From Chitinophagales bacterium (GTDB lineage: Bacteria > Bacteroidota > Bacteroidia > Chitinophagales > JADIYW01): a stretch of DNA of 6,497 nucleotides. The DNA is taken from NCBI GenBank assembly GCA_020848315.1, contig JADLAH010000171.1, forward strand, positions 1 to 6,497, given 5' to 3'. The position numbers and the translations under genes are program-made. The notes under the pieces were generated by a model that had not been told where the DNA came from, searched no databases, and saw nothing but the letters and a program-made list of their open reading frames with translations. Below are positions 1 through 6,497 of this stretch, piece after piece (the stretch's first letter is position 1; every line of letters starts with the position of its first letter).

Positions 1-1460
1 AGCAATTCATAGGGTATGATTTCCCAATCTGCGATAATGTAATTATTCTGTTTGCGCAACTCGGCTATTTCCGGCCATTCAGCAGCGCCCATTGTACGAT
101 GACTAAAGCCTGATTTTTCGGACTTCAACAACAGCGACAGAAAGAGATGATTCCGCTTGTACATATTATCATTCAGATATCGGGTACGGTAAATCCTCAA
201 CGCATCCATCTTATGAAAAATAAGATTATATTCCTTGCGGGCAAAAAGAAAGAGCATTTCCACGACCCGAATGGAGAAGTTGAAGCCCGATTTATCTTTT
301 GAATTCACGGGCACATCATTCAGGAATTTCGGCAAACTGAATTTATAGGCACCATTATTCAGATAACTATCCATAAACACCCAGTAGGCGTGATAAATTT
401 TCCATTTTTCCGTAATCTGCGCCACCTGCTGTTTAAATGATTTATGCTCCGTCACCGACTTATATACGCTCAACGCTTCCGGCAAATGATGATTCTGCAG
501 ATACAGCTTGAATTCGATTTCTTTCAGCACCAACCAGTTGTAGAAGTTATTGGCGTTAATCATGCCGCTCGACTGCTCCAGCAGTTGCAGACCGCGCTCA
601 TATTGCCGTGTATGCAGCAATGCTTTCATGCGATAGAGCAGTACGGCAATCCGTCGGGTGGCAGTTTCTGTATTCGGATGATCATCCATATACTGCGCCG
701 CTTCATCGCACACTTGCTGCATCTTATCCAGTTCATTGCTGTTCTGATAATACGAGAATGCGAGATAGAAATAAAAGAAATCGATCTCCGGATTATTCAG
801 TTCTTTTCTGATGACATATAATTGTTCCAGCTTCTGGCGCACTTCCGTCAGCATCTCATTGGTAACAGGCGAAGCACTCACAAAATCGACTACCGCGCTG
901 TAATAGATATACTTCGCCATCTGTTCCTTTTGTGCCAGTTCCATATACAACAGATAGCGTTTTTCTTCTTCTTTCAGGTTTTTCTTATCGCCTTTCAGCG
1001 CGTAGTAGCAAACTAGATAATACGAGTAATTCCTCAGGATATCGTAAAAATTATACTTCTGCGCTTTGCTGAAATTCTCTTTAATCAGCTCATATACCAG
1101 GCGATTGGTGCCGGTCATTTTTATAATAATATCCAGGATATGGTTAAACGTCATGCATTCATAATAGGCACGCCCCAGTTCACTGCTGAATACTTCATCC
1201 TCATCAAACAACAGGATAGACTTCAGGATTTTCCCTTTAAACCGCGATTTGAGCTGTCGGTAGCGGGCATCTTTTTCGCGGGAATCATACAGATAGGCAG
1301 CAGCGGACGCGTCATCGGTGATTTGCCCACTCTCCAGCCCTTCGTATAGCTTGTAATACAAACTCTCGCTTTGCGCATTCAGAAATGTCTTGTCAAATAC
1401 ATCAATTTTTGACAAACGCTTCCTGTTTACGATTTTAACCAATTCTTTTAAAACATCCAT
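1..1460 (-). CDS. Uncharacterised helical TPR-like protein, C-terminus cut off by window edge
   Basis: An open frame with no stop runs from an ATG at 1460 to the left edge, giving 486 residues, so the true C-terminus lies outside the window. The start is well fixed: an in-frame TAA lies four codons upstream, no other in-frame ATG intervenes, and a Bacteroidota-type promoter sits just upstream. The protein begins MDVLKELVKIVNRKRLSKID and has no signal peptide or clear membrane segment, so it is probably cytoplasmic. It is rich in Leu, Tyr, Lys and Glu and reads as successive amphipathic helices. Examples are residues about 140-190, 200-255 and 265-335, with TPR-like pairings such as LLYRMKALLHTRQYERGLQL (274-293) and LKEIEFKLYLQNHHLPEALS (312-331). 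I see no catalytic motif or DNA-binding helix-turn-helix. I do not recognise the family; the TPR-like fold is inferred from helix pattern only. It is divergent from the small repeat-peptide gene at 1867. Confidence 0.85.
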   Translation of the reverse strand, partial: MDVLKELVKIVNRKRLSKIDVFDKTFLNAQSESLYYKLYEGLESGQITDDASAAAYLYDSREKDARYRQLKSRFKGKILKSILLFDEDEVFSSELGRAYYECMTFNHILDIIIKMTGTNRLVYELIKENFSKAQKYNFYDILRNYSYYLVCYYALKGDKKNLKEEEKRYLLYMELAQKEQMAKYIYYSAVVDFVSASPVTNEMLTEVRQKLEQLYVIRKELNNPEIDFFYFYLAFSYYQNSNELDKMQQVCDEAAQYMDDHPNTETATRRIAVLLYRMKALLHTRQYERGLQLLEQSSGMINANNFYNWLVLKEIEFKLYLQNHHLPEALSVYKSVTEHKSFKQQVAQITEKWKIYHAYWVFMDSYLNNGAYKFSLPKFLNDVPVNSKDKSGFNFSIRVVEMLFLFARKEYNLIFHKMDALRIYRTRYLNDNMYKRNHLFLSLLLKSEKSGFSHRTMGAAEWPEIAELRKQNNYIIADWEIIPYEL

Positions 1461-1483
1461 ATTGTCACATTAACAATGCATAT

Positions 1484-1514
1484 CAAAAATACAATTCACA
1501 GTAAATCAATCAAA
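1484..1514 (-). promoter_or_regulatory. Bacteroidota-type promoter for the TPR-like gene
   Basis: On the minus strand a -33 TTTG (1514 to 1511) is followed after 19 bp by a -7 box TATTTTTG (1491 to 1484). This fits the known Bacteroidota consensus TTTG-N19-21-TAnnTTTG. Transcription would start near 1478, leaving a leader of about 18 nt before the ATG at 1460. This is the only candidate in the window that has both boxes at the expected spacing. Confidence 0.6.
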
Positions 1515-1547
1515 TAAAAAGAATTTTGATTAAAATAAAGGCATATA

Positions 1548-1559
1548 CTTTGTCACAAA
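1548..1559. repeat. Operator-like dyad CTTTGTCACAAA, copy 1
   Basis: This 12-bp sequence is identical to the one at 1690-1701. Its core TTTGT-C-ACAAA is a perfect 5-bp dyad around one central base, the shape expected of a binding site for a dimeric regulator. It lies about 35 bp upstream of the -33 box of the minus-strand promoter. The regulator is unknown. Confidence 0.4.
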
Positions 1560-1598
1560 TCAAGTATCAAATGTAATATAACTCCGTCACTTTACCTA

Positions 1599-1606
1599 TA
1601 TCTTTG
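1599..1606 (+). promoter_or_regulatory. Possible -7 box (TATCTTTG) facing the repeat-peptide gene
   Basis: TATCTTTG matches TAnnTTTG exactly on the plus strand, but no TTTG lies at the expected distance upstream, so support is weak. If used, transcription would begin near 1613 and leave a leader of about 250 nt before the ATG at 1867. That leader would contain the inverted repeat at 1765-1799. A weaker box, GATATTTG at 1841-1848, lies much nearer the gene and is an alternative. Confidence 0.3.
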
Positions 1607-1689
1607 AATCCGCTTAAATAATTTACCCTCAGGGGCTAAGTATCTTAAGTCAGACATACGAAAATATATTTTGCTTTGAGACACCCCAC

Positions 1690-1701
1690 CTTTGTCACAA
1701 A
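1690..1701. repeat. Operator-like dyad CTTTGTCACAAA, copy 2
   Basis: This is identical over 12 bp to 1548-1559 and offset by 142 bp. The TTTGT-C-ACAAA dyad is preserved, while the flanking bases differ, which points to conservation of the site rather than a recent duplication of the region. It lies about 165 bp upstream of the repeat-peptide ATG. Confidence 0.4.
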
Positions 1702-1714
1702 AATAAGATATATT

Positions 1715-1741
1715 ACACAACTAATTCACACACAACTAATT
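1715..1741. repeat. Tandem pair of ACACAACTAATT
   Basis: Two perfect copies of the 12-mer ACACAACTAATT lie at 1715-1726 and 1730-1741, separated by CAC (period 15 bp). They sit between the second TTTGTCACAAA dyad and the large inverted repeat. They could be paired half-sites or simple slippage in AT-rich DNA. Confidence 0.5.
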
Positions 1742-1764
1742 GAATTATATTGTTTTAGTTTTTA

Positions 1765-1799
1765 GTGACACTATATTTACACCATCAATATAGTGTCAC
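1765..1799. repeat. Perfect 13-bp inverted repeat: operator, attenuator or terminator
   Basis: The arms GTGACACTATATT (1765-1777) and AATATAGTGTCAC (1787-1799) are perfectly complementary around a 9-nt loop (TACACCATC). On the plus strand the stem is followed by A and then five T (1801-1805), so the RNA could form a moderate intrinsic terminator or attenuator. On the minus strand no T-run follows. The outer half of each arm (GTGAC/GTCAC) echoes the TGTCACA motif seen elsewhere in the region, so a protein-binding palindrome is equally possible. It lies about 70 bp upstream of the repeat-peptide ATG. Confidence 0.75.
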
Positions 1800-1866
1800 A
1801 TTTTTATGTTTTCTGCAATAGAGTATTGAAAATGTTGCCTGATATTTGTATCACAATCACGCAACA

Positions 1867-2046
1867 ATGGGAATTATTTTAACACTCTTGATCGCCCTCT
1901 TCGGCAACTCCGGTATCGTAATCGACGGAAACAGCTACATCGTTAAACAGGATGAAAAATCTATTGTTATCGATGGCAACAGCTATCTTACCACCAACAA
2001 CGCAAACACTAATGCTCGTATTGTAATTGACGGCAATAGTTTTTAA
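1867..2046 (+). CDS. Small repeat peptide with three IVIDGNSY/F copies
   Basis: This is a 59-residue protein of unknown function. From the ATG at 1867 it has a hydrophobic N-terminal segment (residues 2-12, GIILTLLIALF), a short GNSG turn, and three copies of an octapeptide: IVIDGNSY (17-24), IVIDGNSY (33-40) and IVIDGNSF (52-59). The last copy ends exactly at the C-terminus. The linkers differ: a charged IVKQDEKS and an Asn/Thr-rich LTTNNANTNAR. The repeats differ almost only at third codon positions, strong evidence that the frame is translated and the octapeptide is selected. A strong terminator follows 46 bp after the stop. A TTG at 1846 would add seven residues, but ATG is preferred. The N-terminus could be a secretion signal or membrane anchor, though it has no positive charge before the hydrophobic stretch, which is atypical for Sec. 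Possible roles are multi-copy peptide precursor, modified peptide, amyloid-like repeat or membrane peptide; all are inference. Confidence 0.78.
   Translation: MGIILTLLIALFGNSGIVIDGNSYIVKQDEKSIVIDGNSYLTTNNANTNARIVIDGNSF
1915..2043 (+). repeat. Three in-frame 24-bp coding repeats (IVIDGNSY/F)
   Basis: The units lie at 1915-1938, 1963-1986 and 2020-2043, with start-to-start distances of 48 and 57 bp. Each pair of units carries five synonymous third-position differences (for example GAC/GAT, GGA/GGC, AAC/AAT). The only amino acid change is Tyr to Phe in the last unit. This pattern is old repeat divergence under constraint on the protein, not recent DNA duplication. Confidence 0.9.
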
Positions 2047-2092
2047 TAAATTTTTCTCCTTTTTTATAGTAGTAGTCAACAATCATCACATC

Positions 2093-2119
2093 AGGGAAGC
2101 TCCTGCTTCCCTTTTTTTT
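2093..2119 (+). terminator. Intrinsic terminator after the repeat-peptide gene
   Basis: A perfect 8-bp stem, AGGGAAGC (2093-2100) with GCTTCCCT (2105-2112), encloses a TCCT loop and runs into eight T (2112-2119). The T-run is on the plus strand only, so it terminates the peptide transcript rather than the converging thioesterase transcript. It supports the small gene being a real, separately ended transcription unit. Confidence 0.88.
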
Positions 2120-2130
2120 ATTTAAAGAGA

Positions 2131-2568
2131 CTACATCTTAATGGGTATGGCGGTCGCAATAAGGTTGGAAGTGGCCTTGGAGAGCAACTTACCATCTGCC
2201 GCAAAGAGTTTTGCTTCTGTATGTAATACCGTTTTACCCGGACGCGCCACACGACCTTCCCCTACAATAACATCTCCGGCTTTAGCACTTGCCAGAAAAT
2301 CGACATTCATATTGATGGTTGCATAACCTACCGGACGCCCAAGCGTAAATCCAGCTGCCCCCATCAACTCATCCAACATCGTTGAGGCAATTCCTCCATG
2401 CAAGATTCCAATTGGATTGAGCATGTATGACTCCACTTTGAATTCCATTTTCAAAAAACCTTCTTCCACTTCAATAATTCTGGCGTTCAGCCATTTCATC
2501 AATGGATAATCAAACAACCATTCACCTTTTTCTATCTGCTTTTTATAGAATGTTACTCTTTCATTCAT
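2131..2568 (-). CDS. PaaI-type hotdog-fold acyl-CoA thioesterase
   Basis: This is a 145-residue cytoplasmic protein, the usual length for single-domain PaaI/YdiI-like hotdog thioesterases, which hydrolyse acyl-CoA thioesters. The signature NPIGILHGGIASTMLDELMG covers residues 51-70. HGG is at 57-59, with the likely catalytic Asp66 nine residues after His57, as in PaaI. The second half has the expected beta-strand core: ATINMNVDFLASAKAGDVIV (83-102), then a strand with RVARPGKTVLHTEAKLFAADGKLLSKA. The substrate cannot be told from sequence; phenylacetyl-CoA is not implied because no paa genes are present. The ATG follows the prfC stop by 14 bp on the same strand, so it is probably cotranscribed with prfC; I see no separate promoter. 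It ends close to the terminator of the converging small gene. Confidence 0.9.
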   Translation of the reverse strand: MNERVTFYKKQIEKGEWLFDYPLMKWLNARIIEVEEGFLKMEFKVESYMLNPIGILHGGIASTMLDELMGAAGFTLGRPVGYATINMNVDFLASAKAGDVIVGEGRVARPGKTVLHTEAKLFAADGKLLSKATSNLIATAIPIKM

Positions 2569-2582
2569 CTTATTTATTTTAC

Positions 2583-4187
2583 TTAGGAAATCACCTCGTC
2601 GCGGTTAAACTCGGAGGTAAAATGGAATTGTATTTCCGGATAATCCTGCTGGGTAAGGCGCAGAATCCACTCGGAGGTAGCCAAAAACACCGGCTTATCA
2701 TCCTTATCATAAGCGATATAATTGGATTTTGTACGGATAAATTCATTCAGTTTGGCCTCATTTTCACTGGTCAGCCAGCACGCCTTAAAATACTGCAAGG
2801 GCCGGAACTGACAGGAGGCTCCGTATTCATTCAGCAAACGGTACTGAATCACTTCAAATTGCAAATCGCCCACGGTACCAACAATCTTCGCCTGTGTGGT
2901 ATGCACCGTAAACAACTGCGCCACGCCTTCTTCTGTGAGCTGCGCGATACCTTTTTCCAGTTGCTTCGTTTTCATCGGATCGGTGTTCACCATCTCTTTG
3001 AAAATCTCCGGAGAGAAATTAGGGATTCCTTTGAAATACATCATTTCGCCTTCCGTCAGCGTATCGCCGATTTTGAAGTTGCCGGTATCGTTCATACCAA
3101 TCACATCTCCCGGGTAGGCATCTTCCACAATATTTTTGTCGGATGCCATGAAAGTAACGGGATTACTGAACCGCAATTCCTTTTTAAGGCGCGTATGAAA
3201 ATAGAATTTATTGCGTTCAAACTTACCTGAACACACCCGCAAAAATGCAATTCTGCTGCGATGGTTCGGATCAATGTTCGCATGTATTTTAAAAACAAAT
3301 CCGGTCATTTTTTCTTCGGTCGGCATCACCACTCTCGTATTCGTATTTCGTCCTCGCGGAGATGGCGCAATTCGAATAAATGTTTCGAGCAACTCGCGCA
3401 CCCCGAAATTATTCACCCCGGAACCGAAGAACACCGGCGCAATCTCGCCTGTTTTGTATTTTTCTTCATCAAAAGTTTCATACACGCCATCGATCAGCTC
3501 CACATCTTCGCGCAATTTGGCGGCATCCCGCTCGCCGACCTGCTTATCCAGTTCTCCATCATTCAGATCGGAAATCTGCACAAATTCCTCTTCCACTTTA
3601 GTACCGGAAGCCCTGAACAAATTCAACTGTTTATCATAGAGATTATACACTCCTTTGAAGTGAGTACCGCTGTTGATAGGCCATGATAAAGGGCGTGTTT
3701 TAATGAATAATTTCTGTTCCAGTTCATCCAACAAATCGAACGGATCTTTTCCGTCGCGGTCCATTTTATTGATAAAAACAATCACAGGTGTATTACGCAT
3801 GCGGCAGACTTCCATCAGCCTTTCCGTCTGCATCTCCACCCCTTTCACACAATCCACCACCAGAATTACGCTGTCAACCGCCGTCAGTGTGCGATAGGTA
3901 TCTTCCGCAAAATCCTTGTGGCCGGGCGTATCCAGCAGATTGATGAGCGTCCCCTGATATTCAAACGTCATTACAGACGTAGCCACCGAAATACCCCGCT
4001 GTTTCTCAATCTCCATAAAGTCGGAGGTGGCGGATTTCTTAATCTTATTGGATTTCACCGCGCCTGCCGTCTGAATCGCACCACCGTAAAGGAGGAACTT
4101 TTCCGTGAGCGTGGTTTTACCCGCATCCGGGTGCGATATAATGGCGAACGTTTTCCGTTTTTTTATTTCTTCTGCTATCGTAGACAT
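2583..4187 (-). CDS. prfC: Peptide chain release factor 3 (RF3)
   Basis: RF3 is the translational GTPase that removes RF1 or RF2 from the ribosome after peptide release. The 534-residue length fits the family (E. coli RF3 is 529). GTPase motifs are intact: P-loop SHPDAGKT (18-25), switch I RGISV (64-68), DTPGH (86-90), NKMD (140-143) and the G5-like GSGVNN (255-260). The rest matches RF3 domains II and III, with [22 protein letters not shown] (294-315), GDTLTEGE (374-381) and [15 protein letters not shown] (437-451). I choose ATG 4187 ([20 protein letters not shown]). The frame stays open to 4286, but that extension ([10 protein letters not shown]...) is not RF3-like and lies upstream of the likely promoter box at 4219-4226. 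The thioesterase gene follows 14 bp downstream. Nothing looks disrupted. Confidence 0.97.
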
Positions 4188-4218
4188 AATCCTATCATTA
4201 GGTGGCCGAAAGGCGCTG

Positions 4219-4226
4219 CAAAAGTA
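4219..4226 (-). promoter_or_regulatory. Likely -7 box for prfC
   Basis: On the minus strand this reads TACTTTTG, an exact TAnnTTTG match within the TACTTTTGCA context common in Bacteroidota promoters. Transcription would start near 4212, about 25 nt before the ATG at 4187. No good -33 TTTG is visible at standard spacing. The position argues against the longer prfC frame beginning at 4286. Confidence 0.55.
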
Positions 4227-4315
4227 CGGAATAAGGGCACAAAAACCGCGCAATAAACAATAAATAGGTATTAAGAATTTTGGCATAAAATAGCCGCAAA
4301 TAGATAAAGGTTCGT

Positions 4316-4323
4316 TATTTTTG
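4316..4323 (+). promoter_or_regulatory. Likely -7 box for the type IX cargo gene
   Basis: TATTTTTG matches TAnnTTTG and would start transcription near 4330, about 20 nt before the ATG at 4350. A -33 TTTG is not evident at the expected distance. Together with the box at 4219-4226 it makes the 4188-4349 gap a compact divergent promoter region. Confidence 0.5.
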
Positions 4324-4349
4324 TTTGAACTACTATCAATTAAATCACT

Positions 4350-6497
4350 ATGAACATACTCGGATATCTCCGGAGCATGGTATGGATTTGCACCCTTTGC
4401 CTGCCCGTCACCTCATATGCCACCCATCTCGTGGGCGGTGTAATGAATTACCGCTATCTGGGGGAAGACCAGTACGAAATTGATTTGTATGTTTACCGCG
4501 ACTGCAAGCGGGCGCTGGCCGATTTTGACTCCTATGCCATCATACGCATCTGGGACGGAAGCATGGAAAATTATTATTTCTTTGAACTGCCACGTGTGGA
4601 TACGCTGGATGCCACACTGACCGACCCGTGCGCCACCATACAGCCGGATGAATGTGTGGACTGGACTAAATACACCGGCGTAATCTCTCTGCCGGCTATC
4701 GACGGCGATTATACGGTATACTATCAGCGATGCTGCCGGAACAACAGTATCGACAACCTCACCCGCGACCCGTTCAGTGATGAAATCGTGTGGGGTGCCA
4801 CCAACGCAATTACCATTCCGGTGCGCTCCGGTGCACTGCAAAACAGCAGTCCGGTGATTTCCAACTATCCGCCGGTATATATCTGCGCCAACAAACCCAT
4901 ACAATACGACCATTCCGCCGTGGATGCGGATGGCGACAGTTTAGTTTACGGCCTATGCACTCCTTTCACAGGCGCCACCACCTCCGACCCGCTGAACTAC
5001 TACGTGGAAGAGGTGCCGCCTTTTGATACGGTGGTCTGGAAAAACCCCTACAGCCTGAGCAATCTGCTGGGTGGCACGCCGCTGAGCATCAACTCCAGGA
5101 CGGGCTTGCTGACCGGCACCCCCAATACCGTCGGGCAATTCGTGGTGGGGATTTCCATTGATGAATACAGAAACGGCACTTTCATCAGCCGCACTATCCG
5201 CGACTTCCAGTTCAATGTTGTGGACTGCGGACTCCAGGTAATCAGCAGCTTCTTTGCGCCGGATATCCAATGTAATGACTCCACCGTTGTCTTCAACAAC
5301 CTGAGTTCCGGTGCAAGTACTTTCAAATGGTATTTCGGGGACGGAGATTCTTCCACCGCACAATTTCCGACACACACTTACCGCGATACCGGAAGATATA
5401 CCGTCACACTCATCTGTAATGAAGGCTCCTTCTGCAGCTCAACCTACACACAGGAAATATCCATACAAATCCGACGCATTCAGGCAGACTTCAACACATC
5501 TGCTCTGAGCTGTCTGAGTGCGGGAAACAGCATCCAACTAAACGATCTGAGTACCGACTTCTTCGGTGTGAGCGGATGGAAATGGACTTTTTCTGACAGC
5601 ACTATCTCCTATGACAGAAACCCTGTTTTCACCTATAACGGAACTGACACCGCCTTTTCCGCTACACTGCTGGTAACTTCTGTAAACGGTTGTACCGCCA
5701 GCCAGACACAAACATTCCCACTACACGCAAAAGCCACCTATGCCGCGCCAAATGACACTGCGGTATGTCAGGGAAGAGAAGTGCTGCTGAATGCGGGCAT
5801 CAGTTCCATGACGCCATACACCATTAACTGGCAATTCAACGGGGGCTCACAGACCAACAACAATCAATCAGCTATAAGTTTTACACCGGCAACAAGCCAG
5901 ACGGTATACTTCACGATTAGCAACAGAGAAAACTGCAGCATCACGGACAGTACGGCCGTCACGGTGTATACGTTACCGGAAGTGGAAGCTACTGCAGATC
6001 CTGCATCTATTTTCCGCGGAGACACTGCGCAGTTGACCGCCACAGAAAGAGAAACCTACACTTATCAATGGTCTCCATCCAATACGTTAAGTGATTCTAG
6101 CAGCGCCGTCACCATTGCCAAACCATTAACGACCACCACCTACCAGGTAACAGTAACCGACGAAAACGGCTGCCGAAATCAGGATACAGCATTAGTCCAG
6201 GTGGTACCAAGAGAATGTTCGGAGAAGCTGATATTTATACCCAACGCGTTTACGCCAAATGGAGATGGTGCCAATGACACTTTCCGCGTGCGGTCGGAAA
6301 TCCTGACTGAAATGATTCTAAAGATATATGACAGATGGGGCAATGAAGTTTTCTATACCAACAATATGCTGGACGGTTGGGACGGACAGTACAAAGGCGC
6401 AGCAGCTCCACCGGATGTGTATGGCTTCACAATGTCCGGCACCTGTCTCGAAAATAAAAAAATAGTAATAAAAGGCAACATCACACTACTGAGATAA
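4350..6497 (+). CDS. Secreted PKD/Ig-like repeat protein with type B T9SS sorting domain
   Basis: This complete 715-residue protein ends with TAA on the last base of the window. Residues 1-24 form a Sec signal peptide ([20 protein letters not shown], likely cleavage after SYA). Residues 25-295 form a Cys-containing N-terminal region starting [14 protein letters not shown], a pattern common in large Bacteroidota surface proteins, and include a putative Ig-like stretch near 243-291 ([20 protein letters not shown]). A PKD domain spans about 300-375 ([11 protein letters not shown]...PTHTY), and a second PKD-like unit spans about 378-455 (WKWTFSD). Ig-like units follow at about 456-540 and 541-620 ([12 protein letters not shown]). 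The last about 90 residues are the gliding-motility-associated type B sorting domain, with [17 protein letters not shown] (629-645), DRWGNEVF (661-668), GWDGQYKG and a C-terminal KGNITLLR. The protein should cross the outer membrane by the type IX system and stay on the surface or be released. The adhesin/structural role is inference; no enzyme domain is seen. Confidence 0.93.

Follow-up and report, generated by a model that had tools for sequence, protein, structure and literature searches.

What is a small bacterial protein for if it repeats the same eight residues three times and ends on the last copy? The question is raised by a 6,497-nucleotide stretch of DNA from a Chitinophagales bacterium (assembly GCA_020848315.1, contig JADLAH010000171.1, positions 1 to 6,497 of the forward strand), hereafter the window. 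At close to an even chance, we propose that the repeated units are the likely peptide ligand of the protein encoded by the divergent neighbouring gene, a predicted Rap-like tetratricopeptide repeat (TPR) superhelix, and that the two would act as a propeptide-receptor pair of the RRNPPA type. The features on which this proposal turns are:

1867..2046, + strand: multi-copy peptide gene, 59 residues (from the reading-frame translation and orthologues)
1867..1914, + strand: leader, residues 1–16, hydrophobic, with no Lys, Arg, Asp or Glu in residues 1–12
1915..1938, + strand: unit 1, IVIDGNSY, residues 17–24
1963..1986, + strand: unit 2, IVIDGNSY, residues 33–40
2020..2043, + strand: unit 3, IVIDGNSF, residues 52–59, abutting the stop codon
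3..1460, − strand: divergent partner gene, 486 residues visible, continuing past the window edge; predicted TPR-like superhelix

The repeated unit and its relatives in the genus

An initial annotation, made from the letters alone, had described a 59-residue reading frame with three near-identical octapeptides, the last at the stop, and the translation agrees exactly: MGIILTLLIALFGNSG-IVIDGNSY-IVKQDEKS-IVIDGNSY-LTTNNANTNAR-IVIDGNSF-stop. An alternative in-frame TTG at 1846 would yield 66 residues; the start conserved among orthologues is the ATG at 1867. Shuffling the residues of the peptide 3,000 times never produced three octamer copies (at most one mismatch; 2,999 shuffles had one copy and 1 had two), and no other stop-to-stop frame of at least 30 residues in the window holds a three-copy octamer. 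At the DNA level, identity to copy 1 is 79% for copy 2 and 71% for copy 3 (unit 1, ATC GTA ATC GAC GGA AAC AGC TAC; unit 2, ATT GTT ATC GAT GGC AAC AGC TAT; unit 3, ATT GTA ATT GAC GGC AAT AGT TTT). Because all of these differences are synonymous except at the last residue, the repeat is one of protein rather than a DNA tandem repeat; the codon differences and the shuffles together rule out a tandem-repeat or chance origin.

A protein database search with the window peptide gave 5 matches, itself included, among 9 candidates, that is, four near relatives. A profile built from eight peptides matched 21 proteins at E ≤ 1 (7,995 candidates scored), of which 19, including the window peptide, were counted as family members. 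Left out were P0016, a 515-base contig on which an unrelated frame precedes the units, and P0021, with neither matching leader nor unit. Among those counted, P0004 begins inside the leader, so that only the leader end is visible, and P0006 duplicates the first 43 residues of the peptide of genome G004. Members have at least two copies of a unit, the last at the stop or 1–3 residues ahead of it, and the units of the family are IVIDGNSY/F, IVDPTGGN, IVDPTGTN, VITDPNG(R/K/F), GIDPTGNK, IVIDGSGN, IVIDPTNG and GGIDPT(G/E)G. The inferred layout of a leader followed by repeated units, with the last at the stop, is thus common to homologues that carry other units. Repeat-bearing homologues do exist in related genomes, the repeat is not a fragment of a larger known protein, and the peptide belongs to no named family as far as Pfam and NCBIfam go, none of whose models fits it. 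Two pairs of metagenomic proteins, P0010 with P0053 (17,746 bases) and P0007 with P0061 (3,342 bases), are probably peptide and partner on shared contigs, to judge solely from their equal sizes.

Within the genus, the gene is present in 6/8 genomes. In all six orthologues, an uncharged hydrophobic leader precedes 3 to 11 copies of a unit that is about eight residues long and differs between species; linkers are irregular, from 0 to about 17 residues. The window peptide has 59 residues, four orthologues have 55, 67, 73 and 77, and that of genome G005 has 102. In an order-wide profile search (198 genomes), the multi-copy form was found in these six only, with one further weak match (E 0.0097) within a 1,413-residue frame. 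An earlier wide search with the peptide alone gave matches at E ≤ 10 in 36/99 genomes; besides the window's own, the G005 match (E 0.002) was followed up and the remaining 34, none better than E 0.027, were treated as noise. A peptide pattern search of genome contigs gave 171 matches, none of them confirmed, after which the partner alignment served as the search handle. G001 shows just the tail of the partner gene, where a contig stops, and a search there turned up no close thioesterase. The partner and thioesterase of G003 are on two separate contigs; the one with the thioesterase retains the 3′ element and extends 137 bases past it (L037 1–137). Since this stretch has no unit-bearing frame, only a short inverted repeat, the peptide gene may have been lost, replaced or misassembled there.

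The units are kept nearly unchanged within each gene. Across 36 units from the six genes, synonymous differences per site were 0.607 and non-synonymous differences 0.0062, the latter biased downward by the collection of units by pattern. Only two changes were seen within unit sets: the window's last copy has F for Y, and 1 of the 11 copies in G005 has L for R; G007 was scored on the six-residue core IDPTGN only, the preceding residue varying between G and V. Linkers vary freely while units are kept, and across species the unit is swapped whole while the leader is retained. As a sequence pattern, identity within genes combined with turnover of whole units between species is what would be expected if one specific partner reads every copy. 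A unit that keeps its sequence throughout a gene while synonymous sites change heavily, and that is nevertheless swapped between species, makes a clean case of a ligand under selection, even without secretion, and one for which there is a candidate partner.

The partner protein and counterparts in other genera

The peptide gene and the partner gene are adjacent and divergent in 6/6 genomes with the peptide, and the order prfC, thioesterase, peptide gene, divergent partner is identical in the five loci compared. Complete partner orthologues have 496–501 residues. The predicted fold is a Rap-like superhelix, with Rap as the best structural match, although the Foldseek match was not significant. 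By sequence, the best match in the PDB was a redesigned TPR protein (E 0.034). No Pfam TPR model matched the partner of G007 (P0022), and across 52 family members TPR_14, TPR_7 and TPR_12 each matched one member weakly. Weak Pfam matches to Cmr1_C (2/52 members, best E 3e-05) and CotJB (2 members) were not accepted as family evidence. The N-terminal part, which we considered as a DNA-binding domain, gave no known fold from a weak model (predicted local distance difference test, pLDDT, 67 and predicted template modelling score, pTM, 0.56, with the other four models at 43–48; best PDB match E 4.5). Among the closest known systems are MalT domain III and the NOT10-type superhelix (8fy4_B), for which we know of no adjacent peptide gene of this kind.

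The partner family was found in 38/119 genomes searched. G022, from another family, has 12 partner matches (L132–L139, L142, L094), three of them partial, and several of these partner genes have their own microprotein, each with a different C-terminus. In G002, the partner is in tandem, the second copy lying about 200 bases past the end of the first (L081 1–600; L113). A second partner paralogue in the genus (L125–L131, L170–L174), about 31% identical, has no microprotein on its readable sides and could be an orphan receptor.

In other genera, many partner genes have a divergent small frame with a similar start and a single terminal motif. These motifs are NGIVIIDTDEL (L095), NGIVVLDETDL (L100), GVIIIDENELM (L103), DQIIIEDLGQI (L104), AKIITDDTGTIRP (L105), RIVIFDELEV (L135), FIVIIEDLEL (L137), NIVVIDDIEY (L094) and AVIVPDPDEM (L092). 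Some single-copy relatives carry charge within the hydrophobic stretch. Counted by eye outside the orthologous group, 22/60 loci had a counterpart, all of them divergent; five of the 22 (L136, L138, L144, L158, L159) lack the terminal motif or have a weak one. With a fixed filter, which was written after some counterparts had been seen and is not blind, 11/60 partner loci (154.5 kb) passed versus 2/52 control loci (156.2 kb), both control matches looking unrelated; in 20 Markov shuffles the mean was 0.8 and the maximum 2/60. A looser filter gave 22 frames at 30 partner loci (122 kb) versus 9 frames at 28 control loci (84 kb). Each filter was applied to the full length of the loci on both strands. 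Considering the 61 of 67 partner loci with at least 400 upstream bases as readable, 25/61 had a divergent hydrophobic small frame upstream and 16/61 one on the same strand, with a mean of 4.8 and a maximum of 10 divergent frames in Markov shuffles. Five of the 25 are the multi-copy genes of the genus, and four (L091, L101, L129, L152) are unlike the family. The 18 stretches examined downstream of partner genes added no counterpart; one frame (L177) passes the motif filter and resembles an ordinary membrane protein. Near a partner-family gene in G086 (contig C32, L184) lie three related small frames (MSSIMIFLLG...), about 350 bases apart, of which two have almost the same sequence over 47 residues.

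Overall, the layout described in the initial annotation is supported and its alternative of a modified core (considered below) is not; it overlooked the species-specific unit, the divergent gene for a predicted Rap-like partner and the single-copy counterparts elsewhere.

A proposed ligand and receptor, and other explanations

As we picture the pair, a unit would bind in the groove of the partner superhelix and thereby alter the partner's activity, and the partner or a co-regulator would act back on the divergent promoters, which bear GTCAC sites. A C-terminal motif that is single elsewhere and multiplied in this genus would fit such a groove. In the least certain step, the peptide would be exported and cut into free units before acting; if it is cut, several copies would raise the ligand dose per translated protein. 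We regard the units as the likely ligand of the partner and their secretion as a possibility.

For comparison with RRNPPA systems, we used the five criteria given in PMC10075063. Propeptides there have 10–100 residues, a range that includes the window peptide and four orthologues and is slightly exceeded in G005. Receptors have 250–500 residues, in line with the complete partner orthologues, and the two genes are directly adjacent, as is this divergent pair throughout. TPRs are detected there by hidden Markov models, whereas here these gave only the weak single-member matches and it is the fold prediction that is Rap-like. Secretion there is by Sec (SHP and PrgQ excepted); leaders here have no Lys or Arg in residues 1–12, which speaks against that route. 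In RRNPPA pairs the mature peptide occupies the groove of the TPR receptor, as the units would do here. The characterized pairs of Bacillota (Rap-Phr, NprR-NprX, PlcR-PapR, AimR-AimP) likewise place a small peptide gene beside the receptor gene, with a C-terminal ligand that sometimes occurs in several identical copies; Rap and NprR propeptides have a similar design with several copies per precursor, according to PMC9765709 and PMC11343458. The present pair differs in its phylum, its non-Sec-like leader, the lack of a Pfam TPR match in the G007 partner, units that share hydrophobic residues followed by Asp, and a partner N-terminal part with no recognised fold in a weak model. The SHP precursors of Rgg are hydrophobic and have no Sec signal predicted by SignalP (PMC10075063), much like the hydrophobic, non-Sec-like leader here. 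However, SHP-like precursors can have N-terminal basic residues, which this leader lacks, and duplicated units were not found in Rgg or ComR propeptides, whereas this family repeats them.

Several observations count against a ligand-receptor pair of this type. The leader is short (about 13 residues) and has no basic residue, and Lys and Arg are absent from residues 1–12 in 16/16 multi-copy members, which argues against Sec secretion. No exporter, protease or processing gene is shared among the 10 partner-side flank proteins scanned at four loci. Nor does the unit simply follow partner similarity: the closest partners belong to G000 and G007 (66.9%), whose units differ, while G004 and G006, with partners at 66.3%, have the same unit. 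Because of the short leader without a basic residue and the absence of a shared export or processing gene in the scanned flanks, we withhold the label pheromone. An unlikely though serious alternative is that the repeats are never cut and stay in the cell, held at the membrane or by the leader helix, where they would form a multivalent short-linear-motif ligand and so gather or silence several copies of the partner, with no communication between cells. This would suit the non-Sec-like leader, the charge inside the hydrophobic stretch of some single-copy relatives, the lack of a shared exporter or protease, and linkers that are free to vary while units are retained; it would also spare the peptide from having to cross a Gram-negative outer membrane. 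On the other hand, the nearest analogue, the multi-copy RRNPPA propeptides, is secreted (PMC11343458), and the species-to-species swap of the whole unit looks like a signal code.

A short, hydrophobic, uncharged start and a 3′ untranslated region (3′UTR) with a terminator strongly conserved in sister species are what a membrane-active small peptide (type I toxin or lytic peptide) with an incidental neighbour might show, but the conserved part extends beyond the hydrophobic start to a polar, Asp-containing C-terminal repeat and the partner is retained at 6/6 places, so we consider it quite improbable. Equally improbable is a beta-strand or amyloid-like repeat in which I-V-I would form strands and D-G-N or D-P-N-G would form turns, as in a surface or matrix peptide: the units do contain beta-prone residues and turn-prone DG, DP and NG, but their spacing is irregular, 3 copies suffice in some species and single-copy counterparts occur. 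Functional amyloids of the curli type have regular beta repeats with export machinery nearby, and no curli-type match was present among the 10 flank proteins. Both readings account for less. We give very little credence to a precursor of ribosomally synthesized and post-translationally modified peptides (RiPPs) with several cores, an alternative raised initially. A leader with repeated cores in which Asp is invariant would suit it, and so would two nearby enzymes, an Asp/Asn beta-hydroxylase at G006 and a methyltransferase at G005, but neither enzyme is common to the four loci, the flank past the partner differs in each, and the leader is purely hydrophobic. No maturation enzyme is common to the loci among the flank proteins scanned, which represent part of the frames there, and one may be encoded elsewhere.

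Returning to the ligand-receptor pair, we consider it possible, with doubts that outweigh our confidence, that a separate class of intracellular peptide-receptor signalling exists in Bacteroidota: a family of TPR-superhelix receptors with about ten paralogues in one genome and divergent microprotein ligands ending in hydrophobic residues and Asp, which in one genus have reached 3–11 copies, with wholesale unit replacement and a non-Sec leader. RRNPPA signalling has been described as a trait of Bacillota. Among the papers listed by searches of the open-licence PMC literature, judged from titles and the starts of abstracts, none deals with a peptide-TPR pair in Bacteroidota; such a signalling pair would be one not previously described for this phylum in the searchable open literature. 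If true, a Gram-negative phylum would have a peptide code together with a predicted receptor for it, which would open a testable route to communication or self-recognition there.

Promoters, 3′ elements and neighbourhood

The remaining features of the window are:

1842..1848, + strand: ATATTTG box, ending 18 bases ahead of the ATG
1464, 1552, 1586, 1694, 1765 and 1795 (span 1464..1799): six GTCAC/GTGAC sites in the divergent spacer
2093..2112, + strand: intrinsic terminator hairpin, followed by a T run
2131..2568, − strand: thioesterase (4HBT), a conserved neighbour that runs convergently to the peptide gene
2583..4286, − strand: peptide chain release factor 3, conserved housekeeping neighbour

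An ATATTTG or ATCTTTG box is conserved in the six orthologues, 18 to about 24 nucleotides 5′ of the start, and resembles the Bacteroidota −7 box. Base composition predicts 0.20–0.34 GTCAC sites per spacer; all six spacers share four, with positions agreeing within three bases, at about 67–71 and 167–171 bases from the peptide start and 90–93 and 3–4 bases from the partner start. In the window these are the sites at 1464, 1552, 1694 and 1795, which sit at places matching the five other spacers. The window has two extra sites and G005 one; the window sites at 1765 and 1795 fall within an inverted repeat.

Downstream of the peptide gene (L119–L124), a 23-nucleotide 3′UTR element, AGTTAGTAGTTTAGTTCTTACAC, precedes the conserved terminator hairpin. 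It matches exactly once in each of 6 genus genomes (G002–G007), has diverged in the window genome and, of the 396 genomes of the order that were searched, is absent at up to 2 mismatches from the other 390. The element is better conserved than the peptide and could be a 3′UTR-derived small RNA. Near the gene in six sources, Rfam gave one sub-threshold match, an L20 leader at L055 (25.8 bits versus a threshold of 58.7, E 0.28).

Past the partner gene, the flank differs in each of the four loci that reach there, and its proteins are each seen at a single locus: the Asp/Asn beta-hydroxylase in G006, the methyltransferase and a prenyltransferase in G005, an FtsX/MacB-type permease in G004 and a metallo-beta-lactamase-fold protein in G007. 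A defence system was rejected (PADLOC models matched none of 5 proteins at E ≤ 1), as was phage or plasmid cargo: the peptide (P0001) gave 30 pattern matches in viral contigs, none confirmed, and the partner gave no phage match and one partial 24.5% match on a Hymenobacter plasmid. At the far end of the window, positions 4350–6497 encode a PKD protein of secreted type that carries a CHU_C type IX secretion domain.
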